Positions 48 to 16,446 of a stretch of DNA of 16,446 nt are shown piece by piece. The stretch is taken from the NCBI RefSeq assembly GCF_004570345.1, contig NZ_SPQM01000109.1, positions 1-16,446 on the forward strand, given 5' to 3'. Position numbers and translations under genes: made by a program. This DNA comes from Blastococcus sp. CT_GayMR20. Its GTDB lineage: Bacteria; Actinomycetota; Actinomycetes; Mycobacteriales; Geodermatophilaceae. The first letter of the stretch is position 1; each line of letters opens with the position of its first letter. The notes under the pieces were generated by a model, which worked only from the letters and a program-made list of their open reading frames with translations, ran no database searches and was not told where the DNA came from.

Positions 48-67
48 CATCGGCAGAGCGACCGATT
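48..67. promoter_or_regulatory. 20-bp palindromic operator candidate, site 1
   Basis: The sequence reads CATCGGCAGAGCGACCGATT. Its outer half-sites ATCGG and CCGAT are inverted around a fixed centre. The first 19 bases are identical to site 2 at 1002-1021, while the flanking DNA is unrelated, so this is not a simple duplication. It lies just downstream of the broken regulator gene (stop at 89-91). If functional, it would serve a gene to the left of the window. Which protein binds it is unknown. Confidence 0.6.
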
Positions 68-88
68 CGCAGCCGGCGTCGGATCGGC

Positions 89-897
89 TCAGGGCCCTCC
101 TGTCAGCCCCGGCGGGATGCGCAGCCCGTCGCGGAGGGCGCGGACCGCGGCGGCCGTGAGATCGCCCGTACGGAGGGCGGTCAGGCTCCGCCCGAGGGAG
201 TCGGCCACCGCCTCCATGCCGAGGTGCAGCGCCTGCCCGAGGGCCCGGACGTCGGTCACGCCCTCGACGAGCAGTCCCAGGACCCGGAGGTCCACGGGGG
301 TGAGGCCGCGCAGGTCGCCGGGTGGGCACAGGAGCCGGTGCCCGGTGCAGGGGCGAGGAACGTGGTGTACGCGTCGTTGTCCGCCAACTCGTCCGCGGCG
401 ACCGCGAGGACCGGTGAACCCGGCGCCAGCAGGCGGTCGTCGGGCAGACCCGGTAGCGGCAGGACGTCGCCCCCGCGGGTGAGCACGACACCGGCGCTGG
501 CCCGTCCGATGACCAGGGCCGTCTCGGCGATCTCCCGGGTCCGGTCCAGGTCGTCGGCGATGACTGCGGTGACGGCTGCGACGATCCTCCGGTCGGGCGG
601 GTTCGGCCGCGAGGGATCGGCGCAGAGCAGGCTGAGGAAGCCGACGTGCCGCCCGTCCGTCGTGAAGAGGCCGCCCGCCACGCCCTGACGGAAACCTGCC
701 GGGAGCAGGTGGTCCGCCCACGCGCGGACCTCGGTCAGCGGGCCCGGGATCTCGCTGGCCAGCATCGGCAGCCGGCGCCGGTCGAGCCCGAGCTGGTCCA
801 CCTCCTCGTCGGCCTCCGGACGGCCGAAGTAGTTGCGGAGAGGCGCGGCCGCGAACTCCGACCGCAGCCCCGGAGGCTCGGGTTCACTCCCGCTCAT
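89..897 (-). pseudogene. GAF-like/LuxR-HTH regulator, frame broken in the middle
   Basis: Starting from ATG at 897-895 (upstream GAGGAAGG), one frame gives about 185 residues of a GAF-like sensor region, including ADHLLPAGFRQGVAGGLF, then GVVLTRGGDVLPLPGLPDD, and ending near APAPGTG. That frame runs into a stop at 256. The next part of the family pattern, LRGLTPVDLRVLGLLVEG followed by VRALRDGLRIPPGL, continues in a different frame down to a stop at 89. It is a LuxR-type HTH. The frames change at roughly 325-350, and the span of 809 nt is not a multiple of three. From memory of related actinobacterial GAF-LuxR proteins, the linker here also looks short, so a deletion with frameshift fits better than one miscalled base, though a sequencing error is not excluded. 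The HTH has diverged: the usual CSNRQIA stretch is replaced by VTDVRALG. Before decay it probably was a DNA-binding stress regulator, perhaps of the local palindromes. Confidence 0.7.
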
Positions 898-901
898 CCC
901 C

Positions 902-985
902 GCTGGCCCACCTTCCTCGGGAGACGACGAGGGTGCGCGCGATCTGCCTGTTCGAGCAACCCTCCACGACGTCAAGGGTGCGGGG
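902..985 (-). pseudogene. Remnant of a second LuxR-type HTH domain
   Basis: Read on the minus strand from 976 to 902, 25 codons encode LDVVEGCSNRQIARTLVV followed by SRGRWAS. This matches the core of actinobacterial LuxR HTHs, in which VAEGCSNRQIARxLVV is followed by a turn and a TVASHV-like recognition helix. In the last seven codons the helix has lost its pattern in a way a small indel would explain. There is no intact sensor domain upstream and no complete HTH downstream. The remnant ends within five bases of the start codon of the next regulator, whose ribosome binding site lies inside it. I read it as a fossil of a sibling regulator gene. Confidence 0.5.
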
Positions 986-1001
986 ACGTCCCGGCGTCCG
1001 A

Positions 1002-1021
1002 CATCGGCAGAGCGACCGATG
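1002..1021. promoter_or_regulatory. 20-bp palindromic operator candidate, site 2
   Basis: The sequence reads CATCGGCAGAGCGACCGATG. It lies 105 bp upstream of the start of the broken regulator (897, minus) and about 250 bp upstream of clpC (1270, plus). A role in autoregulation of the regulator gene would fit, but this is inference. Confidence 0.65.
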
Positions 1022-1187
1022 CGCCCATGTGCTCGGAGCCCCTCCGCGACCCGGACAGCGATCGGTCGTGGCAACCGACGCCTGCGACGCCACGCCTGCC
1101 AGGTGACGGATCTCGTCGCCGAGGGACATGCGCGCGGACGGTGACTGCGGTGATCTCGGTGGTCGGGTCCGCCTCGCCGGACGGCCG

Positions 1188-1207
1188 CCTCGGCAGGATG
1201 ACCGATG
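1188..1207. promoter_or_regulatory. Weaker 20-bp operator candidate, site 6, upstream of clpC
   Basis: The sequence reads CCTCGGCAGGATGACCGATG. The right half-site GACCGATG is intact; the left half has one change (CCTCGG instead of CATCGG) and the centre differs at a few positions. It ends 62 bp before the clpC start codon, a distance similar to the other sites. It is less certain than the other five because it matches the consensus imperfectly. Confidence 0.45.
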
Positions 1208-1269
1208 GAGATCCCGTTCCGCGAGGAGTAGGGCAGTAGGGACCACGCCACTCCCGGGACGGATGAGCG

Positions 1270-3795
1270 ATGACCAGCGGATACTTCCCAGGCCCCTACG
1301 GCAGCCCCTTCGACGACTTCTTCGGCCGCTACATGGGCGGCCCTCGCCAGCCGCGCCAGCGCGTCGACATCACCCAGTTCCTCAGTGAGCAGGCCCGGGA
1401 ACTGGTGAACGCGGCCGCGCGCCGGGCCGCCGAGGTGGGCAGCCCGGACCTCGACACCGACCACCTGCTGTGGGCGATGACCGAGGAGGGGCCCACCCGG
1501 CAGCTGATCGGCCGCGCGGGAGCGGATCCGGCGCAGCTGCGCGCCGAGCTCGACGGCGTGCCGCGTCGCGGCGAGCCGCGCGCCGAGACGCCGGCGCTGA
1601 CCCCGGCGGCCAAGCGCGCCCTCCTCGACGCCCACCAGATCTCCCGGGCGCTGGGCTCCACCTACATCGGCCCCGAACACCTGCTGTTCGCGCTGGCGGT
1701 CAACCCGGACTCGCCGGGCGGGCGTCTCCTGCGCCATCGGGGCGTCACGCCGGAGGCGCTGCAGCAGGCCGCCATCGGCGCAGGCGGCGGCCAGGGCGGG
1801 GCCGGCCGGCCCCCGTCGAGCACCCCGACGCTGGACGAGTACGGCCGGGACCTGACCGCGATGGCCCGCAACGGTGAGATCGACCCCGTGATCGGCCGGG
1901 AGCAGGAGATCGAGCAGACCGTCGAGGTGCTCTCCCGGCGACGCAAGAACAACCCCGTGCTCATCGGGGAGGCCGGCGTCGGCAAGACCGCGATCGTCGA
2001 GGGGATCGCCGCCCAGATCGCCGAGGGCGACGTCCCGGAGACCCTCCGCGGCCGCCGGGTGGTCGAGATCGACCTGACCGGACTGGTCGCCGGCACCCGC
2101 TACCGCGGCGACTTCGAGGAGCGGCTGAAGAAGGTCATCGACGAGATCCGGGAGCACAGCGACGAGGTCATCGCCTTCATCGACGAACTGCACACCGTCG
2201 TCGGGGCAGGCGCCTCCGAGGGGTCCGGCGGTGCCGGCAACATGCTCAAGCCGGCCCTCGCCCGCGGGGAGCTGCACATCATCGGCGCCACGACCCTGGA
2301 CGAGTACCGGCGCAACATCGAGAAGGACGCCGCGCTGGAGCGCCGGTTCCAACCGATCCTGGTGGCCGAGCCCAGCATCGAGGACACGGTGCAGATCCTG
2401 TGCGGGCTGCGTGACCGCTACGAGGCCCACCACCAGGTGCGGTTCACCGACGAGGCCGTCGTCGCGGCCGTGGAGCTCTCCGACCGCTACATCCCCGACC
2501 GCCACCTGCCCGACAAGGCGATCGACCTCATCGACCAGGCGGGGGCACGCGTGCGCCGCCGGGTGAAGATGCCCCCGACCGACCTGCGTGGCCTGGAGCA
2601 CGAGGTGGAGCGGCTGCAGCGGGAGAAGGACCAGGCGGTCGCGGCCGAGCAGTACGAGCGGGCCTCCGAGCTCCGCGACCAGGTCGCCGAGGCCCAGCAG
2701 CGGCTCGAGCAGGCCCGGGACGGCGGCGGCGAAGGTCCAGGTGTCCCCGAAGTGGGTGTCGAGGACATCGCCGAGGTGGTGTCCCGCGCCACCGGCATCC
2801 CGGTCAGCCAGCTCACCCAGGAAGAGATGGAGCGGCTGCTCGACCTCGAGCAGCGCCTGCACGAGCGGGTGGTCGGGCAGGACGAGGCGGTCGAGGTCGT
2901 CGCCGAGGCGGTGCGCCGCTCCCGTGTCGGCCTCGGCGACCCGGATCGGCCGATCGGCAGCTTCCTCTTCCTGGGCCCGACCGGCGTGGGCAAGACCGAG
3001 TTGGCGCGGGCCCTCGCCGAGGCGCTCTTCGGCGACGAGACCCGGATGATCCGGCTGGACATGAGCGAGTTCCAGGAGCGGCACACGGTCAGCCGGCTGG
3101 TCGGGTCCCCGCCCGGATTCGTGGGGTACGAGGACGCCGGGCAGCTGACCGAGGCGGTGCGCCGCCGGCCGTACTCGGTGGTGCTCTTCGACGAGATCGA
3201 GAAGGCCCACCCCGACGTCTTCAACACCCTGCTACAGGTGCTCGACGACGGCCGGCTGACCGACTCCCAGGGCCGGACCGCCGACTTCCGCAACGCGGTC
3301 ATCATCATGACCAGCAACCTCGGGTCGGAGCTGATCGTCGGGCGACGCGGGCCGCTCGGGTTCGGCAGCAGCACCGCGCACGAGTCCAACGCCGACCTGC
3401 GCGACCAGGTGATGCGCCGGCTGCGGGAGGCGTTCCGCCCGGAATTCCTCAATCGGATCGACGAGATCGTGGTGTTCCAGCAGCTGGACGCCACCCAGCT
3501 GGAGCGGATCACCGAACTGATGCTCGACGAGACCCGCCGACGGCTGCGGGGGCAGGGCATCGAGGTCGAGTTCGACCCGGAGGCGGTCACCTGGCTCGCC
3601 GAGCGCGGGTTCGAACCGCGCTTCGGCGCCCGACCGCTGCGCCGGGCCATCCAGCGCGAGGTGGACAGCCGGCTCTCCCGGCTGATGCTCGACGGCCGGG
3701 TGCGCAGCGGCCATCGGGTTCGCGTCGTGGTCCGGGACGGGGACCTCGACCTCGAGGTCGAGGACGTGCGGGAGGCCGCGGCGGCGCAGGCGTGA
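1270..3795 (+). CDS. clpC: ClpC-type AAA+ unfoldase (Clp protease ATP-binding subunit)
   Basis: This 841-residue two-ring AAA+ protein would unfold proteins for ClpP in the cytoplasm. In order it has a leader rich in Gly, Pro and aromatics (about 1-34), a Clp N-domain repeat pair (about 35-170), a first AAA module with Walker A GEAGVGKT (233-240) and Walker B FIDE (303-306), a UVR-like coiled coil (about 445-480), a second AAA module with Walker A GPTGVGKT (569-576) and Walker B LFDE (639-642), and a C-terminal small domain. The UVR segment and the short middle region favour ClpC over ClpB. An LGF tripeptide (696-698) sits where ClpP-docking loops occur, so partnership with ClpP is likely. 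The leader differs from the MFERFT-type start of housekeeping ClpC, which suggests an additional stress-linked paralogue. ATG at 1270 has only a weak upstream purine stretch. Two palindromic sites lie upstream. Confidence 0.93.
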
Positions 3796-3866
3796 GCGGT
3801 CGTCCCCGGTGTCCCGTGCCGACTCCAGGGGAGGCCCGGAACCGACGCGGCGAGGGGCCGTCCAGG

Positions 3867-4085
3867 TCAGACGAGCCCCTCGTTGTGGGGCTCGATGCTG
3901 GCCGAGGGATCCACTCCGTCGTCGGCGGCCGGCTGGACGGGTCCTTCGCCCGGCTCCGAGCCGGAGCCGGCGGCGGTGTTGCGGGACGACCGCTCCGGAT
4001 CGGTCACGTCCGTGGTCGTCGGTGCCTGGCCGATGCGCTTGGCGGCCGGCCCGGTTCCGGTCTCCTCCAGCTCTGACTCGCTCAC
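3867..4085 (-). CDS. Small acidic, probably disordered protein of unknown function
   Basis: I do not recognise a family. From GTG at 4085-4083 the gene gives 72 residues, starting VSESELEETGTGPAAKRIGQ, rich in Glu, Asp, Ser, Pro and Gly, with no hydrophobic stretch, so it is probably a soluble disordered protein. I chose this start because GGAGGAG lies just before it; a GTG at 4121 in the same frame would add 12 residues but has a poorer ribosome binding site. It is divergent from the winged-helix-like gene at 4377, with palindromic site 3 between them, and it ends in a hairpin shared with the 3' side of clpC. Codon third positions are less biased than in the neighbours, so the call is moderate. 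Confidence 0.5.
   Translation of the reverse strand: MSESELEETGTGPAAKRIGQAPTTTDVTDPERSSRNTAAGSGSEPGEGPVQPAADDGVDPSASIEPHNEGLV
3872..3894. terminator. Hairpin between convergent clpC and the small acidic gene
   Basis: Perfect 8-bp arms CGAGCCCC (3872-3879) and GGGGCTCG (3887-3894) enclose a 7-nt loop. The hairpin is 77 bp past the clpC stop and overlaps the last codons of the minus-strand gene. There is no T-run on either strand, so it would be a non-canonical, possibly bidirectional terminator of the kind often proposed in high-GC actinobacteria. Confidence 0.4.
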
Positions 4086-4264
4086 AACTCCTCCATCCAG
4101 TTCCTTCGATGCAGTGATCACGCAGTGGGCTCCACGAGCTCGGGGAGGCCCGCGCGATGGCCGAGGGGGTGGGCGGTCGGCGGTCCGGCGCGGACGCCGG
4201 CGCCGGTCCTACCTCGGTCCTGGCGCCCTGTGCTGCCAGCCTGGAGGACGCCGCCGTGGGAAGC

Positions 4265-4284
4265 CATCGGCAGAGCTGCCGATG
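4265..4284. promoter_or_regulatory. 20-bp palindromic operator candidate, site 3
   Basis: The sequence reads CATCGGCAGAGCTGCCGATG. Its arms CATCGGCAG and CTGCCGATG are perfectly inverted except for the central two bases. It lies 92 bp before the start of the gene at 4377 (plus) and about 180 bp before the acidic-protein gene (minus), so it could serve either or both. Confidence 0.7.
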
Positions 4285-4376
4285 TGCGCCCGCCGTCCGG
4301 GTACCGATGCGGAAGCCGGGTATGCCTCCCGCGCCGCCGACCGCGGTGTCGAGCTGCCGTCCCGGGAAGGACCACC

Positions 4377-4616
4377 ATGCGCGTCGAAGACCTGTCGCGG
4401 GAAGACGCCGCGGTCTACCGGGCCGTGGCCGAGGTGGAGGTCGGTGCCGGTGCCCCGCATCTGAGCGACATCGCTCGTCGCGCCGGCCTGGACCTGGATC
4501 GGACGCGGGCCGCGGTCCACCGCCTGCTGCACAGCGAGCCGAAGATCCTGCACGAGGTACCGGACACGAGCCGGACCGATCTGGGGCCGGTGTACGAACT
4601 GGCGCCGCGGACCTGA
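4377..4616 (+). CDS. Small winged-helix-like protein, 79 residues
   Basis: Residues about 26-48 (PHLSDIARRAGLDLDRTRAA followed by VHRLL) look like a helix-turn-helix, and the C-terminal part ending VYELAPRT could form a wing, as in small MarR/ArsR-like folds. The whole protein would be one DNA- or protein-binding domain with no sensor. ATG at 4377 is preceded by GGAAGG six bases upstream, a good ribosome binding site. It stands alone on the plus strand and is convergent with the DUF2795 gene. Palindromic site 3 is 92 bp upstream, which places it in the putative regulon. The function is not known to me; DNA binding is inferred from the HTH-like pattern only. Confidence 0.7.
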   Translation: MRVEDLSREDAAVYRAVAEVEVGAGAPHLSDIARRAGLDLDRTRAAVHRLLHSEPKILHEVPDTSRTDLGPVYELAPRT

Positions 4617-4685
4617 CTCCTCAGGCAGGTCAGCAGACCGGCCCCCAGGAGTCGGCCGTCGGTGCCGGGTGCCGTCGACCCGGTG

Positions 4686-4970
4686 CTACCGGGGCTCGCG
4701 CATGTGCTCGGCGACTCCCGCGGGGGCGTGCGTGCTGGCCTGCTCGGCCGCCCGGCTCGCCGACCGGCCCGCCCCGGGGTCGACGGGCACCGACCGCACC
4801 ACCTCCGCACGGTTGCGGTACTCGACCGGCGGGATGGCCCGCAGGCTGCGGACCACCGCATCGGGTGCGCCCGCCCGCTCGGCGGCGGCGACCAGCACCT
4901 CCTTGCCGGCCGGGTAGTCGACGTCCACCAGGTACTGCAGGACCTGGTCGGGGGTGGTCGCATCGGTCAC
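4686..4970 (-). CDS. DUF2795 family protein
   Basis: The first 65 residues match the DUF2795 pattern: VLQYLVDVDYPAGKEVLVAA, then AERAGAPDAVVRSLRAIPP and EYRNRAEVVRSV. The family is a small helical domain of unknown biochemical role, common in actinobacteria and often near stress genes. The remaining 29 residues are Ala/Arg-rich and probably unstructured. GTG at 4970-4968 is preceded by AGGAAGG with 8-base spacing. It is the last gene of a minus-strand operon, 34 bases after the DUF2267 fusion gene. Expression is probably driven from the promoter upstream of 6166. Confidence 0.85.
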   Translation of the reverse strand: MTDATTPDQVLQYLVDVDYPAGKEVLVAAAERAGAPDAVVRSLRAIPPVEYRNRAEVVRSVPVDPGAGRSASRAAEQASTHAPAGVAEHMREPR

Positions 4971-5004
4971 GGGGATTGCCTTCCTGGTCGGGGCCCTCGG
5001 GGGG

Positions 5005-5721
5005 TCAGCCGTGGGACCCGACCGCGGCGATCGCCGCGTCGATCCGCCGGGCGAGGTCGACGTCCATGTCGGTCACGCGGTCGAGCGAATGCGTCCAGAC
5101 CTCGAAGGTGACCGTGTCCTGCAGTTGCTCGACGCGCGCGTGGTGGGTCATGTCCAGCTCGGCGCGGGCGACGGCGTCGCGCAGTGGCCGATGCCGGTCG
5201 GGCGGGAGCACGACGGTGCGCCGCAGCCGGTGTTCATCACCCTCCCAGCCCTCCAGGGCCGCGAGCGCGCGGTCGATCTCATCCCGCTCGAGCAGTCGCG
5301 GGGTCAGCCCGATCAGCACCCCGGAACCGCGTGGCGGAACCCCCTGGTCGATCGGTGCGAACAGCTCCTCAGCGTCCGGCAGTCGCCGGGCGAGGACGCC
5401 GGCCACCTCCGGTTCGGAGCCGGCCAGTGTGGAGAGGACCGCCTGGGTGTAGAACCGGGCCCGCTCGGCCGGGCATCCGGACCCGGCGCTCACCGCGGAG
5501 ACCAGGGCGGCGCCGCTGTCGGGGTGCACGGACTGCGCCTGGGTCTCAGCGGCGCCGCGGAGGGAGCCGGGCAGGACCGCGGCCAGCCGGTCGCGGTCGG
5601 GCTCCTCCAGTGACGCGGCCACTGCGGCGATGACCGCCTCCACCGCCCGGCGAGCCTCCTCGGTGTCGGCCGCGCCGAGCTGCGCTCCCACGGTCTGGAC
5701 GAACGTCGCGTACTGGATCAC
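5005..5721 (-). CDS. DUF2267 domain fused to a pterin-4a-carbinolamine dehydratase-like domain
   Basis: The N-terminal half of this 238-residue protein follows DUF2267: MIQYATFVQTVGAQLG, then RAVEAVIAAVAASLEEPDRD and LAAVLPGSL. Residues about 138-232 follow the pterin-carbinolamine dehydratase (PCD/DCoH) fold: LTPRLLERDEIDRALAAL, GWEGDEHRLRRTVVL, then DMTHHARV, VTFEVWTHSLDRVTDMD and LARRIDA. The family's catalytic histidines appear conserved as His193, His194 and His211. The Pro after the His pair is Ala, and the usual aromatic a few residues on is Gln, so activity is uncertain. PCDs dehydrate 4a-hydroxytetrahydropterin; no aromatic hydroxylase is visible nearby, so another use of the fold is possible. 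It follows the first DUF2267 gene by 67 bases and precedes DUF2795. The start encodes MIQYATF, matching the MDYATF start of its neighbour. Confidence 0.8.
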   Translation of the reverse strand: MIQYATFVQTVGAQLGAADTEEARRAVEAVIAAVAASLEEPDRDRLAAVLPGSLRGAAETQAQSVHPDSGAALVSAVSAGSGCPAERARFYTQAVLSTLAGSEPEVAGVLARRLPDAEELFAPIDQGVPPRGSGVLIGLTPRLLERDEIDRALAALEGWEGDEHRLRRTVVLPPDRHRPLRDAVARAELDMTHHARVEQLQDTVTFEVWTHSLDRVTDMDVDLARRIDAAIAAVGSHG

Positions 5722-5770
5722 CGGGCTCCTCCTGACCTGGTGCGGCCCTGCTCTTCCGGTCGCGGCCGAT

Positions 5771-5794
5771 GCCTGAGCGCGGAGGAGCTCAGGC
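5771..5794. other. Inverted repeat at the end of the first DUF2267 gene
   Basis: Arms GCCTGAG (5771-5777) and CTCAGGC (5788-5794) pair perfectly over a 10-base loop and overlap the stop codon of the first DUF2267 gene. With no T-run and a further gene of the operon downstream, it may be a processing or attenuation hairpin rather than a terminator. Confidence 0.3.
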
Positions 5795-6166
5795 CATCGG
5801 TCCGACCAGCTCCCGGTACTCCTGCGGCAGCTGGGACAGGACGTCGTCGAACTCCCCGGGCGTGACTGCTTCCCGCACCGTGGTCAGGACGGCGACGGCC
5901 CCGCTCCGGGCTTCCTCGGGTCCGACGTCCCCACGTTCCGCGACGCGGCGCACGAACTCGTCGACGCCGAACGCCTCCGCCTCTTCGCGCGGGGGACGCA
6001 AGTCGTCCTGGAGCCGGGCCGGCAACTGCGCGGCGAGGTCCTGGGCCTCACCGCCGCTGATGCGATCGGCGAGGGTCCGCAGGGTGGCGTGCTCGATCCG
6101 CTCCGCTGTCGCCTCTGGCAGCCCGGCCCGCTCGGCCGCGGTCCGCGTGAACGTCGCGTAGTCCAT
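5789..6166 (-). CDS. DUF2267 family protein
   Basis: The 125-residue protein fits DUF2267 over its full length: MDYATFTRTAAERAGLPEAT, then EHATLRTLADRISGGEAQDL, AAQLPARLQDDL, FVRRVAERGDV and VLSQLPQEYRELVGP. It has two related helical halves, each ending in a xxLPxxL/Y motif. The biochemical function of the family is unknown; it recurs in actinobacterial stress and dormancy-type gene clusters. ATG at 6166-6164 is preceded by GGGAG. It is the first gene of a minus-strand operon that continues into the DUF2267-PCD and DUF2795 genes. Palindromic site 4 is 92 bp upstream. Confidence 0.9.
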   Translation of the reverse strand: MDYATFTRTAAERAGLPEATAERIEHATLRTLADRISGGEAQDLAAQLPARLQDDLRPPREEAEAFGVDEFVRRVAERGDVGPEEARSGAVAVLTTVREAVTPGEFDDVLSQLPQEYRELVGPMA

Positions 6167-6257
6167 GTCCGCTCCCGGAGGCGCCGTCGGGCGCCGGTCG
6201 TAGAGATTCCGTCGATCGACCGCGGCTCAGACGCTAGGACCGTTCCTGGCGCGCGGA

Positions 6258-6277
6258 CATCGGTCGATCGGCCGATG
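6258..6277. promoter_or_regulatory. 20-bp palindromic operator candidate, site 4
   Basis: The sequence reads CATCGGTCGATCGGCCGATG, and symmetry extends two bases further on each side (6256-6279) with a single mismatched pair. It lies 92 bp before the DUF2267 start on the minus strand, the same distance as site 3 from its gene, in the divergent region shared with the dehydrogenase operon. Confidence 0.7.
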
Positions 6278-6320
6278 TCGTCCCGGGCGGGGGACCTGCT
6301 CCGCTTCCGGGCCGGCCCCG

Positions 6321-6352
6321 GCCCGGTATCGGCATGTCTGCCGATACCGGGC
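6321..6352. promoter_or_regulatory. Palindromic operator candidate, site 5, with 14-bp perfect arms
   Basis: The 20-bp core at 6327-6346 reads TATCGGCATGTCTGCCGATA. The inverted repeat extends to perfect 14-base arms (6321-6334 and 6339-6352) around a TGTC centre, making it the most symmetrical site in the window. It lies about 80 bp upstream of the GTG start at 6426. It could fold like a terminator stem, but there is no T-run and no gene ends here, so an operator is the better reading. Confidence 0.7.
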
Positions 6353-6425: not shown

Positions 6426-7586
6426 GTGAAGGCAGTCGTGTACGACGGACCCCGCCAAGTCAGCGTCAAGGACGTGCCGGACGCCCGCATCGAGCGGCCG
6501 ACCGACGTCCTGGTACGGATCACGTCGGCGAACATCTGCGGTTCGGACCTGCACATGTACGAGGGCCGGACCGACTTCGAGCCCGGCCGCTGGTTCGGGC
6601 ACGAGAACATGGGCCAGGTGGTCGAGGTCGGCGACGGGGTCGACAAGGTGCGGGTGGGCGACTGGGTCGTGCTGCCGTTCAACATCGCCTGCGGACACTG
6701 CAAGAACTGCGAGCGCCAGCTCACGAACTACTGCCTCACCGCGCAGCCCAAGCCGGAGTGGGCCGGCGCCGCGTACGGCTTCGCCGACATGGGCCCGTAC
6801 GGCGGGGGGCAGGCCGAGCTGCTGCGCGTGCCCTGGGGGGACTTCAACTGCCTTCGGCTGGGCGAGGACGCCGAGCAGCGGCAGACCGACTACGTGATGC
6901 TGGCCGACATCTTCCCGACCGGCTACCACGCCACCGAGATGGCCGGCGTACAGCCCGGCGACCAGACGGTGATCTACGGCGCCGGCCCGGTAGGGCTGAT
7001 GGCCGCCCTCTCGGCGACCATCCGCGGGGCCAGCAAGGTGATGGTCGTCGACCGGCAACCCGACCGGCTGCGGCTGGCCGAGTCGATCGGGGCCATCGCC
7101 ATCGACGACTCGAAGGTCGATCCCGTGCAGGCCGTCCTCGACGAGACGATGGGGCTGGGCGCGGACAACGGCTGCGAGTGCGTCGGCTACCAGGCGCACG
7201 AGCCCGACGGGCAGGAGCAACCGGAACTGACGCTCAACCGGCTGGTCGCCTCGGTGCGGTTCACCGGCAAGATCGGCGTCGTCGGGGTGTACGTCCCGCA
7301 GGACCCCGGCGCGCAGGACGAGCTGGCCAAGCAGGGCAAGGTCGCATTCGACTACGGCATGTACTGGTTCAAGGGCCAGAAGATGGGCAGCGGCCAGGCA
7401 CCGGTGAAGAGGTACAACCGGCAGTTGCGCGACCTGATCGCCGCCGGCAAGGCCGAGCCGTCGTTCATCGTGAGCCACGAGCTGCCCCTCGACCGCGCGC
7501 CGGAGGCCTACGAGCACTTCGACAAGCGGGACGACGGCTGGACGAAGGTCGTCCTCCACCCGGCGATGGCGGGGGCGGGCGCCTGA
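6426..7586 (+). CDS. Zinc-dependent dehydrogenase, glutathione-independent formaldehyde dehydrogenase-like
   Basis: This is a 386-residue medium-chain dehydrogenase. Catalytic zinc ligands are Cys38 (NICGSDLHMYEGR), His59 and Glu60 (GHENMG). Structural zinc cysteines are 89, 92, 95 and 103. The NAD(P)-binding loop is GAGPVG (185-190). The NICGSDLHMYEGR signature and overall length resemble the glutathione-independent formaldehyde dehydrogenase branch, which oxidises formaldehyde or other small aldehydes with tightly bound NAD. The true substrate cannot be told from sequence. GTG at 6426 is preceded by GAGGAGG. It is the first gene of a plus-strand operon; the next start is one base after its stop. 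Palindromic site 5 lies about 80 bp upstream. Confidence 0.88.
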   Translation: MKAVVYDGPRQVSVKDVPDARIERPTDVLVRITSANICGSDLHMYEGRTDFEPGRWFGHENMGQVVEVGDGVDKVRVGDWVVLPFNIACGHCKNCERQLTNYCLTAQPKPEWAGAAYGFADMGPYGGGQAELLRVPWGDFNCLRLGEDAEQRQTDYVMLADIFPTGYHATEMAGVQPGDQTVIYGAGPVGLMAALSATIRGASKVMVVDRQPDRLRLAESIGAIAIDDSKVDPVQAVLDETMGLGADNGCECVGYQAHEPDGQEQPELTLNRLVASVRFTGKIGVVGVYVPQDPGAQDELAKQGKVAFDYGMYWFKGQKMGSGQAPVKRYNRQLRDLIAAGKAEPSFIVSHELPLDRAPEAYEHFDKRDDGWTKVVLHPAMAGAGA

Positions 7587-7587
7587 C

Positions 7588-8163
7588 ATGGCAGGAGAGC
7601 TGAACGGACGGCGGGTCGCCATCCTCGCGGCCGACGGCGTGGAGCGGGTGGAGCTGGAGCGGCCGCGGCAGGCGCTGGAGGAGGCGGGCGCCCGCACCGT
7701 GGTCGTCTCCATCTCCAGCGGCGAGATCCAGGCACGCGACCACGACCTCGAGGACGCCGGCACCTTCGCGGTCGACCAGCTGGTCGGCGCGGCGTCGGTC
7801 GACGACTACGAGGCGCTGCTCCTGCCGGGCGGGACGGTGAACCCGGACAAGCTGCGGATGCAACCCGCGGCCGTGCAGTTCGTCCGGGACTTCGTCCAGT
7901 CGGGCAAGCCGGTCGCCTCGATCTGCCACGGCCCGTGGAACTTCGTCGAGGCCGACGTCGCGCGCGGGCGCCGGCTGACCTCGTGGCCGAGCGTGCGCAC
8001 CGACCTGCGCAACGCCGGGGCGGAGGTCGTCGACGAGGAGGTCGTCACTGACGGCAACATCACGACCAGCCGGTCGCCCGACGACCTGCCGGCCTTCTGC
8101 GAGCGCATCGTGCAGGAGTTCGCGCGGGCCCCGCAGGCCGCCGCCGCGGTCGGTCGCTCATGA
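7588..8163 (+). CDS. DJ-1/PfpI family protein
   Basis: The protein has 191 residues. The nucleophile elbow is SICHGPW with Cys113 and His114, and the N-terminal acidic position expected for the catalytic triad is in DGVERVEL (Glu19 or Glu22). The pattern LLLPGGTVNPDKLR, followed by FVRDFVQSGKPVASICHGPW and LTSWPSVRTDLRNAGAEVVD, is that of the PfpI/YhbO branch. Members have been described as proteases, glyoxalase III-like enzymes or deglycases, so a role against reactive carbonyl damage is plausible beside two aldehyde-type dehydrogenases. Its start is one base after the preceding stop, and its end overlaps the next start by four bases (ATGA), indicating translational coupling. Confidence 0.9.
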   Translation: MAGELNGRRVAILAADGVERVELERPRQALEEAGARTVVVSISSGEIQARDHDLEDAGTFAVDQLVGAASVDDYEALLLPGGTVNPDKLRMQPAAVQFVRDFVQSGKPVASICHGPWNFVEADVARGRRLTSWPSVRTDLRNAGAEVVDEEVVTDGNITTSRSPDDLPAFCERIVQEFARAPQAAAAVGRS

Positions 8164-8645
8164 CCAGCTCCATCGGGAGCGTCGCGTCCCTCGCCGCCCG
8201 CGCCGGCGGAAGCGTCGTCCGACAGGTGCGGTCGGCCGTCGACCCCACCGCTGCCCGGCCGGCCGGTGGGGGCCAGCCGGCGTCCGGGTGGCTCGTGGTG
8301 ACCGTGTTCGGGGACCAGTCCGACGTCGACACCGCACGGCTGCCCGCACCCCTGGCGGAGTTCGGCGAGCAGATCGAGGTCCGCGTCCGCCCGGCCGCCG
8401 GAGGCAAGGGCACCGAGCTCGGCGCCCGGCTGCGCACCCAGCCCTCCGGCAGCGCTCTCGGCCGGCTCACGGGCAGCGATCCGCAGGCCGACCTGCGGTC
8501 CGCGCTGCGCCGGGCCAAGCAGCTCCTGGAGGTGGGCGAGGTGCTGGCGGTCGACCCCGCACCGCACGGCAAGCGGACCGCGACCCCCGGCGGCGCGCTC
8601 CTGGAGGCCTGGACCAGGGTGGCGCCCAAGGCAGGTGTGCGATGA
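8160..8645 (+). CDS. Short SRPBCC-like protein, C-terminal part of the fold only
   Basis: This 161-residue protein starts in an ATGA overlap with the PfpI gene and ends in an ATGA overlap with the second dehydrogenase, so the frame is secure. Residues about 72-128 (VRVRPAAGGKGTELGARLR, then LTGSDPQADLRSALRRAKQL and LEVGEV) match the last strands and C-terminal helix of SRPBCC/cyclase-type proteins, in which a phrase like PAPGGRGTEV precedes an EDP...LRRFKQLLETGE helix. The N-terminal half of the usual SRPBCC cavity (the pxxxVWxxLxD region) is not visible; in its place is a basic, low-complexity N-terminus. It may be a shortened lipid- or ligand-binding protein. The function is unknown. Confidence 0.75.
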   Translation: MTSSIGSVASLAARAGGSVVRQVRSAVDPTAARPAGGGQPASGWLVVTVFGDQSDVDTARLPAPLAEFGEQIEVRVRPAAGGKGTELGARLRTQPSGSALGRLTGSDPQADLRSALRRAKQLLEVGEVLAVDPAPHGKRTATPGGALLEAWTRVAPKAGVR

Positions 8646-9817
8646 AGGCGGTGACCTGGCGCGGGGTCAACGAGATCGGCGTCGAGGACGTCCCCGAGCC
8701 CACGATCCTCAACAGCCACGACATCATCCTCGAGGTGGGGCTGACTGCGACCTGCGGGTCCGACCTGCACCTGATGGGCGGCTACATCCCCGCCATGCGG
8801 GCGGGGGACGTGCTGGGCCACGAGTTCATGGGCACGGTCGCCGAGGTCGGGCCCGCTGTCACGAAGCACCGGGTGGGCGACCGCGTGGTGGTGGTGTCCT
8901 TCACCAGCTGCGGGCAGTGCTGGTACTGCCGGCAGGGGCTGTGGTCGCTGTGCGACAACGGCAATCCGAATCCAGGGATCACCGAGGCGCTGTGGGGCCA
9001 GGCGATCGGCGGCTGCTACGGGTACTCGCACGCACTGGGGGGCTGGGCGGGTAGCCACGCGCCGTACATCCGGGTGCCCTATGCCGACCAGGGGGCCTTC
9101 GCGATCCCGGACGGCGTCTCCGACGAGCGGGCGCTGTTCGCCTCCGACGCAGCACCCACCGGCTGGACGGGCGCGCACCAGGCCGGGGTCCAGGCGGGGG
9201 ACGTCGTCGCTGTGTGGGGGGCCGGCGGCGTGGGACAGATGGCTGCCCGTGCGGCCATGCTCATGGGGGCCGAGGAGGTCGTCGTCATCGACCGGTACGA
9301 CAACCGGCTCGAGCAGGTCCGGACGCACGTCGGGGCGGAGACCGTCGACTACGAGGAGGTGGACGTCCCCGCCGAGCTGCGCGAGATGACCGGTGGCCGA
9401 GGCCCGGACGTCTGCATCGAGGCGGTGGGCATGGAGGCGCACAGCCCTGGCCCCCAGTACCTGTACGACCAGGTCAAGCAGCAGATGCGGCTGCAGACGG
9501 ACCGACCCACGGCGGTGCGGGAGGCGATCTACGCCTGCCGCAAGGGGGGAACGGTGTTCACCCTCGGCGTCTTCGCCGGCCTCGTCGACAAGTTCCCTCT
9601 CGGCGCGGTGATGAACAAGGCGCTGACCCTGCGCGGCGCCCAGCAGCACGGGCACCGCTACATCCCGGAGATCCTCGACCGCATGAGCCGGGACGAGGTG
9701 AGGACCGAGCACCTCGCCACGCACGTGATGCCGCTCGACGACGGGCCGAAGGGCTACCGGATGTTCAAGGAGAAGGAGGACGGGTGCGTCCGTGCGGTGT
9801 TCCGTCCGGGTGGCTGA
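8642..9817 (+). CDS. Zinc-dependent alcohol/aldehyde dehydrogenase, second copy
   Basis: This is a 391-residue medium-chain dehydrogenase in the same broad group as the gene at 6426 but clearly divergent. Catalytic zinc ligands are Cys38 (TATCGSDLHLM), His60 and Glu61 (GHEFMG). Structural cysteines are 90, 93, 96 and 104. The coenzyme loop is GAGGVG (193-198). A roughly 20-residue insert before AIYACRKGG (PGPQYLYDQVKQQMRLQTDR) is a feature I associate with formaldehyde-dehydrogenase-like family members that bind the coenzyme tightly. The start overlaps the previous stop by four bases. The substrate is unknown. Together with the first dehydrogenase and PfpI it suggests an aldehyde-handling operon. 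Confidence 0.88.
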   Translation: MKAVTWRGVNEIGVEDVPEPTILNSHDIILEVGLTATCGSDLHLMGGYIPAMRAGDVLGHEFMGTVAEVGPAVTKHRVGDRVVVVSFTSCGQCWYCRQGLWSLCDNGNPNPGITEALWGQAIGGCYGYSHALGGWAGSHAPYIRVPYADQGAFAIPDGVSDERALFASDAAPTGWTGAHQAGVQAGDVVAVWGAGGVGQMAARAAMLMGAEEVVVIDRYDNRLEQVRTHVGAETVDYEEVDVPAELREMTGGRGPDVCIEAVGMEAHSPGPQYLYDQVKQQMRLQTDRPTAVREAIYACRKGGTVFTLGVFAGLVDKFPLGAVMNKALTLRGAQQHGHRYIPEILDRMSRDEVRTEHLATHVMPLDDGPKGYRMFKEKEDGCVRAVFRPGG

Positions 9818-9908: not shown

Positions 9909-10583
9909 GTGAGCGTCGCGCCCGGCAGGACGGCGGTGGAGGCGGGCCTGCGGCCGACGATCCTGTCGTGGCGCCGCCTGCTGATCTGTCTCGGCGGCGG
10001 CCTCCTCGCGGCCGCGCTCACCACTGTCGCCGGCGTCCCTCAGATGGCGGTACTCGTCGGCTGGGCCGTCGCCGCCGGGGGCCTGCTGCTCTGGGTGTGG
10101 CGGATCAGCTGGCCCCGCGGCCCGGAGGGGACCAAGCGGCTGGCCGAGGAGGAGGGGCGCACCCGCGTCACGGACACTGTCGTGCTGAGCGCGGCGGTGG
10201 CCAGCCTCGCCGCCGTCGTGGAGGCGCTCGTCCGGTCCGGCACGGGGGACGCCGTCGGCGTCGCGACCGTGCTGCTCGGCGTCCTGGTGGTGATCCTGTC
10301 CTGGGCGCTTGTCAACACCGTCTTCGCTCTCAAGTACGCGCGTCTGTACTACTCCGGCGGGGACGGTGGCATCGACTTCGGCCAGCGGGAACCGCCTACC
10401 TACAGCGACTTCGCCTACGTCGCGTTCACCGTCGGGATGAGCTTCGCCGTACCGGACACCCAGCTCGCGGCCACGTCGATCCGCAAGGTCGCCCTCGGGC
10501 ACGCTCTGCTGTCCTATCTGTTCGGCACCGTGGTGATCGCCGTGGCGGTCAACCTCGTGACCAACCTGGGGCAGCAGGGATAG
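9909..10583 (+). CDS. DUF1345 family integral membrane protein
   Basis: The protein has 224 residues with likely membrane segments at about 24-42, 46-65, 89-108, 117-140 and 195-220 and perhaps a shorter one at 168-181. The DUF1345 signature is clear: NTVFALKYARLYYSG, GGIDFGQREPPTYSDFAYVA, FTVGMSFAVPDTQL, then HALLSYLFGTVVIAVAVNL. The function of the family is unknown. GTG at 9909 is preceded by GGAG seven bases upstream. It lies 91 bases after the second dehydrogenase, with a C-rich stretch and an inverted repeat (9818-9824 with 9847-9853) between, so it may be a separate transcript or read-through from the operon. Confidence 0.9.
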   Translation: MSVAPGRTAVEAGLRPTILSWRRLLICLGGGLLAAALTTVAGVPQMAVLVGWAVAAGGLLLWVWRISWPRGPEGTKRLAEEEGRTRVTDTVVLSAAVASLAAVVEALVRSGTGDAVGVATVLLGVLVVILSWALVNTVFALKYARLYYSGGDGGIDFGQREPPTYSDFAYVAFTVGMSFAVPDTQLAATSIRKVALGHALLSYLFGTVVIAVAVNLVTNLGQQG

Positions 10584-13043: not shown

Positions 13044-13454
13044 ATGCCGAAGTACCTGCTCCTCAAGCACTACCGCGGCGGCCCGGAGGCGCACCGTCCC
13101 TTCGCGCCGATGGACCAGTGGGCCCCCGAGGACGTCGAGGCGCACTTCGCCTTCCTCGGGCACGTCCGTGCGCTGCTCGAGAAGAACGGTGAACTCGTGG
13201 ACGTGCAGGCGCTGACGTCGGCACAGACGTGGGTGCGCTACGGCGGCCCGGACGCCGCCCCGGTCACCACCGACGGGTCGCTGCCCGAGACCAGCGATCT
13301 GGTCGCGGGCTGGTACCTCGTCGACGTCGAGTCGCGGGAACGCGCGCTGGAGATCGCGGCCTACATCTCCTCGGAGCCCGGCCCCGGCGGGACGCCGTTG
13401 CACGAGTGGATCGACGTCCGGGAGGTCATGTCCGACGCGCACTCGGACGACTGA
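13044..13454 (+). CDS. DGPF/YCII-related protein, partner of the ECF42 sigma factor
   Basis: The 136-residue protein begins MPKYLLLKHYRGG and continues MDQWAPEDVEAHFAFLGHVR, LVDVQALTSAQTWVRYGG, then LVAGWYLVDVESRERALEIA and HEWIDVREVM. This is the DGPF/YCII pattern, although the name-giving DGPF motif is here DGSLPET. ATG at 13044 has AGGAG upstream; an ATG-like start at 12957 would add 29 residues unlike the family. The gene is seven bases from the sigma factor gene, the arrangement known for ECF42 groups. Its biochemical role is unknown. Confidence 0.9.
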   Translation: MPKYLLLKHYRGGPEAHRPFAPMDQWAPEDVEAHFAFLGHVRALLEKNGELVDVQALTSAQTWVRYGGPDAAPVTTDGSLPETSDLVAGWYLVDVESRERALEIAAYISSEPGPGGTPLHEWIDVREVMSDAHSDD

Positions 13455-13461
13455 CCCGGCC

Positions 13462-14667
13462 GTGATCGACGAGCCGACGCCACCGCTGGACGAGGGCGCG
13501 CTGCGGGCCCTCGTCCCCCGGGTGCTCGCCGGTCTCGTCCGGCGGGGGGAGGACTTCGACGCCGCCGAGGACGCGCTGCAGGAGGCGCTCCTGGAGGCGC
13601 TCCGGGTCTGGCCGGAGCACCCACCTCGCGATCCGCGTGCCTGGCTGTCGACGGTCGCGACCCGGCGGCTCGTCGACGCCCGCCGCAACGAGGCCGCGCG
13701 GTCCCGCCGAGAGGAGGCGACCTACGCCGAGCCGCCGGCCGGCGCGACCGAGGAGGGCGACGACACCCTCTTCCTGCTCTTCTGCTGCTGCGCCCCCGAC
13801 CTCCCGCCGGCGTCCCAGGTGGCGCTCACCCTGCGCGCCGTCGGCGGCCTCACGACCCGGGAGATCGCCGACGCGTTCTACGTGCCGGAGGCGACGATGG
13901 CGCAGCGGATCAGCCGGGCCAAGCGCGCTCTGCAGGGCCGCCCGCTCGACCAGCCCGGGGACCTCGCCGTCGTGCTGCGGGTGCTCTACCTCGTCTACAC
14001 GGCCGGCCATGCGGACCGGGTGGACCTGGCCGGCGAGGCGATCCGACTCGCCCGCCAGCTCACCCTCGCCACCGAGGAACCGGAGGCCCGCGGGCTCCTG
14101 GCGCTCATGCTCCTCAACCACGCGCGCCGCCGGGCGCGACTGGACTCCGAGGGGCGCATCGTCCCGCTCGACCGACAGGACCGCGGCCTCTGGGACACCC
14201 GGGAGATCGCCGAGGGAGTCCGCGTCCTGCAGTCGGCGCTGGCCGCCGAGCGCCCCGGCCGCTACCAGGCCGAGGCGGCCATCGCCGCCCTGCACGACGA
14301 CGCGGCGAGCGCCGGGGAGACGGACTGGCCGCAGGTCCTCGCCTGGTACGACGACCTCGTCGCTCTCACCGACGACCCCGTGCGCCAGGATCCCGCCGCC
14401 GTGCTGGGGCGCGCGGTCGCGGTCGGCCACGTCCACGGCGCCGCCGCCGGGCTGCGGGAGACCGACCGGCTGCGCGAGGTGCTCGGCGAGCGGCACCGGT
14501 GGCACGCCGTCCGCGGCCACCTGCACGAGCTCGGCGGTGACCTGCCCGCCGCAGCCGACGCGTACGCCGAGGCCGCCCGTCGCGCCACGCACGTGGCCGA
14601 GCGCGACCACCTCGTCGGTCAGGCCGCCCGCGCGCGGGCCGCCGGAACGCGGAGGACGGACGCATGA
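13462..14667 (+). CDS. ECF42-group RNA polymerase sigma factor with a long C-terminal extension
   Basis: The 401-residue protein has a sigma2 region (DAAEDALQEALLEALRVWPE, PRAWLSTVATRRLVDARR) and a sigma4 HTH (LTLRAVGGLTTREIADAF, then YVPEATMAQRISRAKRAL). After about residue 170 comes the helical extension typical of ECF42/DUF6596 proteins (VLRVLYLVYTAGHADRVDLA, LLALMLLNHARRRARLDSEG, QDRGLWDTREIAEGVRVL, TDWPQVLAWYDDLV, and a TPR-like end). In this group the extension, rather than an anti-sigma factor, is thought to control activity, and none is seen nearby. GTG at 13462 has only a weak ribosome binding site, fitting translational coupling to the DGPF gene. Together they probably form an autoregulated pair. 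Confidence 0.92.
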   Translation: MIDEPTPPLDEGALRALVPRVLAGLVRRGEDFDAAEDALQEALLEALRVWPEHPPRDPRAWLSTVATRRLVDARRNEAARSRREEATYAEPPAGATEEGDDTLFLLFCCCAPDLPPASQVALTLRAVGGLTTREIADAFYVPEATMAQRISRAKRALQGRPLDQPGDLAVVLRVLYLVYTAGHADRVDLAGEAIRLARQLTLATEEPEARGLLALMLLNHARRRARLDSEGRIVPLDRQDRGLWDTREIAEGVRVLQSALAAERPGRYQAEAAIAALHDDAASAGETDWPQVLAWYDDLVALTDDPVRQDPAAVLGRAVAVGHVHGAAAGLRETDRLREVLGERHRWHAVRGHLHELGGDLPAAADAYAEAARRATHVAERDHLVGQAARARAAGTRRTDA

Positions 14668-14740: not shown

Positions 14741-15415
14741 TCAGTCGTGCGCCCGGCACCAGCTCTGCAGCTCCTCGCGAGCCTCGCGCCACGGATCCGC
14801 GTCGCTCTCGTCGAGGACCTCGCGCGTGGCGAGGCCGTCGTGCAGCGCGGTCACTGCCGCCATGGCGGGGCGGGCCGCCGATGGCAGCCCGGCGCCCATC
14901 CGGTTCGCGGCCTGCTGCGCCCGGTGCCACGCCGCCCGGATCTCGGCAGCAGCCGCCGCGCGGTCGCCTCCACCCCCGCCCTCGGCGAGTGCCAGCGTCT
15001 CGTAGCCGATCACGGCATCGGTCAGTGCCTCGATCACGCCGTCGCAGGCCACCGCCATCGCTGACTCGCCATCGGAGGCTGCCGCCTCCGCGTCTCCCAC
15101 GGGCCCGGCCCCGTCGACAGCCGCCTCGTCCGGCGCGGGCGGTGCAGGGTCCGGAGGTGCGGGGTCGGGAGGTGCAGGGTGGGGAGGTGCGGGGTCGGGA
15201 GGTGCAGGGTCGGGAGGTGCGGGGTCCGGAGGCGCCGGGTCCCACGGGGCAGGGGCGGGCGGATCGGCGTCGCTGGGGCCGGCCGAGGTCGGGCGCGGAA
15301 CCTCGGTCACCCGGCTCGTGTCCGCGAGCGGGTCGTCGCCGCTCCGGGAGGTGCAGCCGCACAGCACGAGGACGACGGCGAGCGCCCACGTCGGTCGCCG
15401 TCCTCGCGAGCGCAT
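14741..15415 (-). CDS. Proline-repeat lipoprotein of unknown function
   Basis: The 224-residue protein begins MRSRGRRPTWALAVVLVLCG followed by Cys: a charged start, a short hydrophobic stretch and a lipobox (LCGC), so it is probably a lipoprotein anchored at the outer face of the membrane. Next is a Pro-rich spacer of repeated DPAPP units (7 copies, encoded by the 15-bp repeat), then a helical domain (AVACDGVIEALTDAVIGYET, AEIRAAWHRAQQAANRMGAG, PWREAREELQSWCRAHD) with two cysteines that might pair. The spacer probably spans the cell wall. The start is uncertain: ATG at 15415 gives a standard signal peptide but a poor ribosome binding site, while an ATG at 15463 would lengthen it by 16 residues. 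The family is not recognised. Confidence 0.7.
   Translation of the reverse strand: MRSRGRRPTWALAVVLVLCGCTSRSGDDPLADTSRVTEVPRPTSAGPSDADPPAPAPWDPAPPDPAPPDPAPPDPAPPHPAPPDPAPPDPAPPAPDEAAVDGAGPVGDAEAAASDGESAMAVACDGVIEALTDAVIGYETLALAEGGGGGDRAAAAAEIRAAWHRAQQAANRMGAGLPSAARPAMAAVTALHDGLATREVLDESDADPWREAREELQSWCRAHD
15141..15245. repeat. 15-bp tandem repeat inside the lipoprotein gene
   Basis: Seven units of ggtgcRgggtcgggA type follow one another. Units with gcA and gcG at the same place alternate, so there is also a 30-bp higher-order period. The last unit (15231-15245) has decayed. The repeat keeps the reading frame and encodes DPAPP blocks. Copy number may vary between strains by slippage. Confidence 0.85.
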
Positions 15416-16178: not shown

Positions 16179-16446
16179 GTGGGTCTGCGCGTCAACAACA
16201 ACATCGCGGCGCTCAACGCGTACCGCAACCTGTCCGTCACCGACGGCCAGATGAGCAAGTCGCTGGAGAAGCTGTCCTCCGGTTTCCGTATCAACCGCGC
16301 TGCCGATGACGCAGCCGGGCTGGCCATCTCCGAGGGACTCCGGTCCCAGATCGGTGGCCTGAAGGTCGCCGTCCGCAACACCCAGGACGGCATCTCGGTC
16401 GTGCAGACCGCTGAAGGTGCGCTCACCGAGACGCACAGCATCCTCC
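16179..16446 (+). CDS. fliC: Flagellin, N-terminal part, truncated by the window end
   Basis: The first 89 residues carry the classic conserved N-terminal flagellin domain: [17 protein letters not shown], then [40 protein letters not shown] and [18 protein letters not shown]. It would be exported by the flagellar type III apparatus and polymerised into the filament. GTG at 16179 is preceded by AAGGAGG (16165-16171) with seven bases of spacing, an excellent ribosome binding site as expected for an abundant protein. The gene continues beyond the window. Its presence implies a motile organism. Confidence 0.95.

Follow-up and report, generated by a model that had tools for sequence, protein, structure and literature searches.

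Which protein reads the six copies of a palindrome that lie between positions 48 and 6346 of a contig from Blastococcus sp. CT_GayMR20 (NZ_SPQM01000109.1), and what does it control? A reading of the letters of this DNA alone (hereafter the sequence-only reading) had taken the copies to define a local stress regulon. Our analysis of the window, meaning the whole stretch of 16,446 nucleotides, indicates that the six sites are probably operators of a single activator, most likely a LuxR-family protein with a GAF sensor domain which we call type A GAF-LuxR. They appear to form a genuine local regulon of a known kind that is apparently undescribed: we found no account of it in the open-licence literature.

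Putative operators in the window

The window was scored with a matrix built from 59 sites of related loci, leaving out the window's own sites (the full training set numbers 64: 59 + 5). All six sites proposed earlier were recovered, five as exact ATCGG-N8-CCGAT cores and one, at 1188, as a weaker match:

48..67: putative operator site 1, exact core starting at 49, 25.4 bits
1002..1021: putative operator site 2, exact core starting at 1003, 26.5 bits, adjoining regulator remnants
1188..1207: putative operator site 3, 15.1 bits, the weakest of the six, conserved as a block ahead of clpC
4265..4284: putative operator site 4, exact core starting at 4266, 28.7 bits, between two divergent small open reading frames (ORFs)
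6258..6277: putative operator site 5, exact core starting at 6259, 26.7 bits, 5' of a DUF2267 gene
6327..6346: putative operator site 6, exact core starting at 6328, 31.9 bits, 5' of a dehydrogenase gene

The distances to the start codons of clpC, the dehydrogenase, the DUF2267 gene and a 79-residue ORF are 62, 79, 91 and 92 bases, and the 14-bp perfect arms described at 6327 are seen in the sequence. The runner-up match scores 10.6 bits and lies within clpC. Among the listed matches of at least 5 bits, none past site 6327 exceeds 5.3 bits, in agreement with the earlier remark that sites are absent from about 11 kb on.

This number of sites is above random chance: across 500 dinucleotide-shuffled versions of the window the mean was 0.016 matches of at least 14 bits (maximum 1) versus the six observed, and 0.034 exact cores versus five. 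A looser IUPAC search allowing three mismatches returned 17 matches where 8.3 were expected, with 2 of 200 shuffles reaching 17; it discriminates poorly, so the strength of the signal rests on the strict core.

We then compared 81 sequences totalling 1.57 Mb, namely 80 dehydrogenase-bearing loci and the window. Half-sites separated by a gap of 8 occur 64 times, versus a mean of 3.1 for each of the other 24 gaps between 0 and 24. Only two of the 88 sites scoring at least 18 bits lie within genes predicted by a simple codon-usage caller, although coding sequence makes up 84% of the DNA; the equal frequency inside and outside genes that would have spoken against a regulatory element is thus not seen. 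Because the matrix was trained on exact sites of the same loci, the core letters of the consensus dyad (18-20 bp, YATCGGYM-N4-KRCCGATR) are fixed by construction, whereas the gap, the position and the intergenic placement are independent of that training.

Across a phylum-wide sample the pattern was present in 43 of 396 genomes (including G001, discussed below), many of them GC-rich and chance-like; the reversed pattern used as control there is not a palindrome and does not give a fair chance rate. A consensus-like match in genome G478 was taken as chance, as it falls within a predicted gene and the genome has no regulator match. Separately, in locus L137 (genome G088) a pair of ATCGGTCG-type dyads is separated by 9.4 kb, and one of the two lies within a predicted gene.

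Conservation in related loci

A site of at least 18 bits stands 5' of the FdhA-like dehydrogenase in 46 of the 80 loci, and one of 14-18 bits in 6 more, with the nearest site starting 79-140 bases ahead of the start. Loci that do not carry it include those of Streptosporangium, Nonomuraea, Amycolatopsis, Lentzea, Leifsonia and several Actinoplanes. When eight Geodermatophilaceae sequences were aligned, the site and a downstream hexamer were kept and the flanks had diverged. The block 5' of clpC behaves similarly: it is found at the same distance in all four island clpC orthologues of relatives (15.0, 15.0, 15.7 and, weakly, 7.0 bits), with a TAG element after it and otherwise diverged sequence around it, which supports site 1188 as conserved. 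The conservation ahead of orthologues that the sequence-only reading called for is therefore present for both genes.

The site is not a general feature of clpC. Of 17 clpC copies in genomes with a regulator match (L147-L163), 12 have none; the five that do are the four island copies, one of them at 7.0 bits only, and a copy from Amnibacterium (L157) which has two sites and lies about 570 kb from the dehydrogenase. None of six copies from regulator-free genomes (L164-L169) has a site. Regulon membership thus mostly follows the island.

A search of eight whole Geodermatophilaceae genomes for ATCGGYN6RCCGAT returned 2-9 places per genome, versus 0-1 for the reversed pattern, a lenient control since it is not a palindrome. 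Consensus-like matches cluster round the dehydrogenase, in an accessory island: in G001 six fall in a 20-kb stretch of a 5.4 Mb genome, and the cluster takes in four of nine matches in G002 and three each in G004 and G006. Most consensus-like sites therefore fit the proposal that the regulon is local; exceptions lie away from the cluster in G002 (C3:33724) and G008 (C12:440405, some 440 kb along its contig).

The genes adjoining sites in relatives encode two types of zinc dehydrogenase, PfpI, cytochrome bd subunit I, a glycogen-debranching-like enzyme and a glycosyltransferase, as well as DUF2254 and DUF2267 proteins, the 79-residue protein, ClpC, SRPBCC proteins, a LysR protein, a GGDEF-EAL protein, type B regulators (see below) and, in Amnibacterium, phosphatidylserine decarboxylase. 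In the Actinoplanes-type locus L024, two dyads 5' of position 10001 have an altered half-site (TTGGCA...TGCCAA), a hint that the operator there may have diverged together with its regulator.

Promoter architecture

The retained hexamer resembles a -10 element. A T...AT hexamer begins 21 or 22 bases past the 22-mer of the site in 37 of 58 dehydrogenase promoters, and the other 30 offsets together account for one. In a further 100 flanks that face a gene, the hexamer is at 21-22 in 12 and at other offsets in 3; for 58 flanks with no close gene the numbers are 5 and 2. Four of the six window sites have a recognisable element at this spacing: TGTCAT at offset 21 on the leftward side of site 1, whose target gene, if there is one, probably lies to the left of the window, TAGGGC at 21 for site 1188, TAGCGT at 21, leftward, for site 6258, and TGCAAT at 22, rightward, for site 6327.

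If the hexamer is taken as the -10, the dyad centre falls near -43 and overlaps the -35, the placement of a class II activator, from which activation may be inferred. Passages of PMC3907764 place the tra boxes of class II promoters about 45 bases ahead of the start, likewise overlapping the -35.

A candidate regulator

Type A proteins are about 340 residues long and comprise an N-terminal GAF sensor domain, a middle domain and a GerE helix-turn-helix. The three that were scanned matched PF00196 at 54.3, 56.2 and 45.0 bits (cut-off 23.5), which identifies the GerE domain, and matched no receiver family and no autoinducer-binding Pfam family. The N-terminus is modelled as a GAF fold. Foldseek matched the regulator model to SdiA, CviR and TraR chains, and DevR structures are among the sequence matches; the GAF matches in the fold searches are generic and name no ligand.

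A dehydrogenase site is present in 27 of 36 genomes with the regulator and in none of 14 regulator-free genomes. On this co-occurrence, type A is the best candidate reader of the box. The window itself holds the following relics:

95..867, minus strand: type B paralogue of GAF-LuxR, identified by tblastn with intact relatives, Pfam and alignment
920..985, minus strand: short relic resembling the type A helix-turn-helix, a 26-residue match (E 8e-5 at best) beside site 1002

The type B gene is frameshifted between its two pieces, 867-340 and 334-95, and tblastn with intact relatives did not find its N-terminal ~60 residues. Type B is conserved, with 60-75% identity to the first protein in four of five compared and 46% in the fifth; in the single relative scanned the C-terminus gave no GerE match, though it is conserved. 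What the sequence-only reading called the broken regulator is probably a paralogue with no recognisable helix-turn-helix and not the reader of the box. An intact type A copy is expected elsewhere in the genome. In Blastococcus litoris (L082 1112-1429, the same place as L006) a type A remnant, a short ORF fusing N-terminal and helix-turn-helix parts, lies beside the dehydrogenase site; it is a second such remnant, like that of the window.

Several observations weigh against a type A activator acting at these sites. Nine regulator-positive genomes, Actinoplanes and relatives, have no good dehydrogenase site, and four Geodermatophilaceae genomes have a regulator match and no exact site match. Three others (G005, G453 and G478) have an exact match and no regulator match, the regulator of G005 being frameshifted and the matches in G453 and G478 being chance-like. 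Because the genomes are related and the regulator gene is often linked to the site, p-values overstate independence. The window encodes no intact regulator, type A being present only as a fragment; sites 1002 and 4265 (two of its six) have no clear -10, and outside the dehydrogenase promoters a -10 is found in 12/100 gene-facing flanks and 5/58 of those with no close gene.

Proposed mechanism and alternative explanations

From the computed sites, their conservation and clustering, the preferred -10 spacing and the co-occurrence with the regulator, we infer binding as a dimer and activation. A type A dimer would bind the dyad YATCGGYM-N4-KRCCGATR, overlap the -35 and recruit RNA polymerase. It would thereby switch on genes for aldehyde detoxification (FdhA-like dehydrogenases, DJ-1/PfpI) and protein quality (ClpC-like), DUF2267/DUF2254-type genes and, in some relatives, cytochrome bd. 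The GAF domain might, as a guess, sense an aldehyde, an electrophile or a respiratory signal.

Two candidate readers, GAF-LuxR and LysR, were examined for co-occurrence. The regulon could be real and read by another protein, for instance a response regulator encoded elsewhere or the LysR-type protein present in some islands, with GAF-LuxR a co-travelling target. Some Geodermatophilaceae sites do adjoin a LysR gene (L001 15404, L033 7270), the type A gene lies in the island so that co-occurrence could reflect linkage, and nine regulator-positive genomes have no dehydrogenase site. However, the LysR cluster is present in only 6 of 80 loci and one overlapping short piece, all from Geodermatophilaceae, whereas the site is present in 46 loci from many families, and the whole-genome agreement between regulator and site holds even where the regulator gene is not beside the dehydrogenase. 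We consider another reader unlikely.

The same GAF-LuxR protein acting as a repressor is very improbable. A repressor could also sit over the presumed -35, and the often divergent GAF-LuxR gene could repress itself, but repression would need no fixed distance to the -10, and that fixed distance together with a weak -35 is typical of activator-dependent class II promoters. We give hardly any credence to reading the inverted repeats as hairpins in RNA, as a repeat element or as a chance product of GC-rich DNA: although the 14-bp arms of site 6327 could fold as RNA, many copies have unequal halves (ATCGGCAGAGCGACCGAT), and the conserved hexamer downstream would place the site outside that transcript. 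These readings are further opposed by the retention of the site amid diverging flanks and by its near absence from shuffled sequence.

Beyond activation by type A GAF-LuxR, a broader joint reading is possible but doubtful: a self-contained, horizontally moving regulon with its own GAF-LuxR activator, an operator for each gene under its control, a type B brake, and operators gained by incoming genes. Type B, which has no recognisable helix-turn-helix and in some genomes carries the operator ahead of its own gene, would form heterodimers unable to bind DNA. A site of at least 18 bits lies within 350 bases 5' of type B in four of eight loci (L001, L013, L033 and L055); the other four (L006, L037, L048 and L049) have none, which weighs against the brake. 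Genes entering the island, such as clpC, would acquire the operator, and copies outside would not have it.

Genes of the island

The genes between and beyond the sites are:

1270..3795, plus strand: clpC-like AAA+ gene, island type
3867..4085, minus strand: small acidic 72-residue ORF, divergent from site 4, with relatives in other islands
4377..4616, plus strand: 79-residue ORF whose relatives adjoin sites in other islands
4686..6166, minus strand: genes for DUF2267, DUF2267 with pterin-4a-carbinolamine dehydratase, and DUF2795, apparently a single operon
6426..9817, plus strand: genes for an FdhA-like dehydrogenase, DJ-1/PfpI, a 161-residue protein and a second FdhA-like dehydrogenase, apparently a single operon

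The clpC gene is 91-92% identical to the island copies of relatives and about 50-53% identical to other Clp genes. Neither the 72-residue nor the 79-residue ORF has a Pfam family, so the earlier naming of the latter (4377-4616) as a winged-helix gene finds no Pfam support; no family was found for the 161-residue protein. The dehydrogenase is 95% identical to its Geodermatophilus aquaeductus counterpart, pointing to a high-GC actinobacterium near Geodermatophilaceae as the source. Among solved structures it comes closest to FdhA, the glutathione-independent formaldehyde dehydrogenase (4jlw, 1kol). The first and second dehydrogenases score 322.3 and 160.5 bits against TIGR02819, below the curated cut-off of 636.95, and we therefore name them FdhA-like only. 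The label "stress" is read from gene content alone, and an aldehyde-stress role is a guess from that content.

Three features lie outside the site cluster. At 13044-14667 a YCII-like protein is followed by a sigma factor (Sigma70_r2/r4_2 and DUF6596), apparently an extracytoplasmic function (ECF) pair; at 15140-15250 short tandem GGTGCRGGGTCSGGA-like repeats in a predicted minus-strand ORF encode a proline-rich stretch; and at 16179-16446 a flagellin N-terminus (Flagellin_N) is cut by the right end of the window.

Comparison with known systems

The DosR box consists of GGGAC half-sites, from which the core ATCGG-N8-CCGAT differs, as the sequence-only reading had observed. The resemblance of the gene set to such a regulon, which that reading also suggested, is weak: the window proteins scanned have no Pfam match to the Usp, Hsp20 or nitroreductase families (target lists of relatives were sampled), and the type A proteins scanned matched no receiver domain. 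DosR/DevR of Mycobacterium and OsdR of Streptomyces coelicolor share with this system a related GerE helix-turn-helix and a palindromic box, but the candidate regulator here carries a GAF domain and matches no receiver family. Compared with the OsdR box AGGGCCGATCGGCCCT (PMC5069765), the outer bases differ and the GG and inner GA stand in similar register. Judged by box and regulator architecture, this is not a DosR/DevR or OsdR regulon. Among described actinobacterial systems OsdR comes closest in layout, as far as the passages of PMC5069765 go: its regulon is likewise centred on one chromosomal region and includes an alcohol dehydrogenase.

The mode of action would be like that of a LuxR-family class II activator. 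The tra-box letters presumably share the inner GCAGATCTGC. According to passages of PMC3907764, the TraR system has an 18-bp inverted repeat with dyad symmetry and the class II placement. Unlike in the TraR type, the targets here are detoxification and protein-quality genes rather than conjugation genes, and the type A proteins scanned have no autoinducer-binding Pfam family.

The result is a regulator-operator pair that can be put to the test in a broad range of actinobacteria, where genes of DUF2267, DUF2254, DUF2795 and DUF1345 adjoin those for aldehyde dehydrogenases, for DJ-1 and for another ClpC. The operator hints at which of these genes work together. The GAF domain may provide a route to finding the signal and, if the brake is true, a conserved paralogue minus its DNA-binding domain would be a regulator turned modulator.

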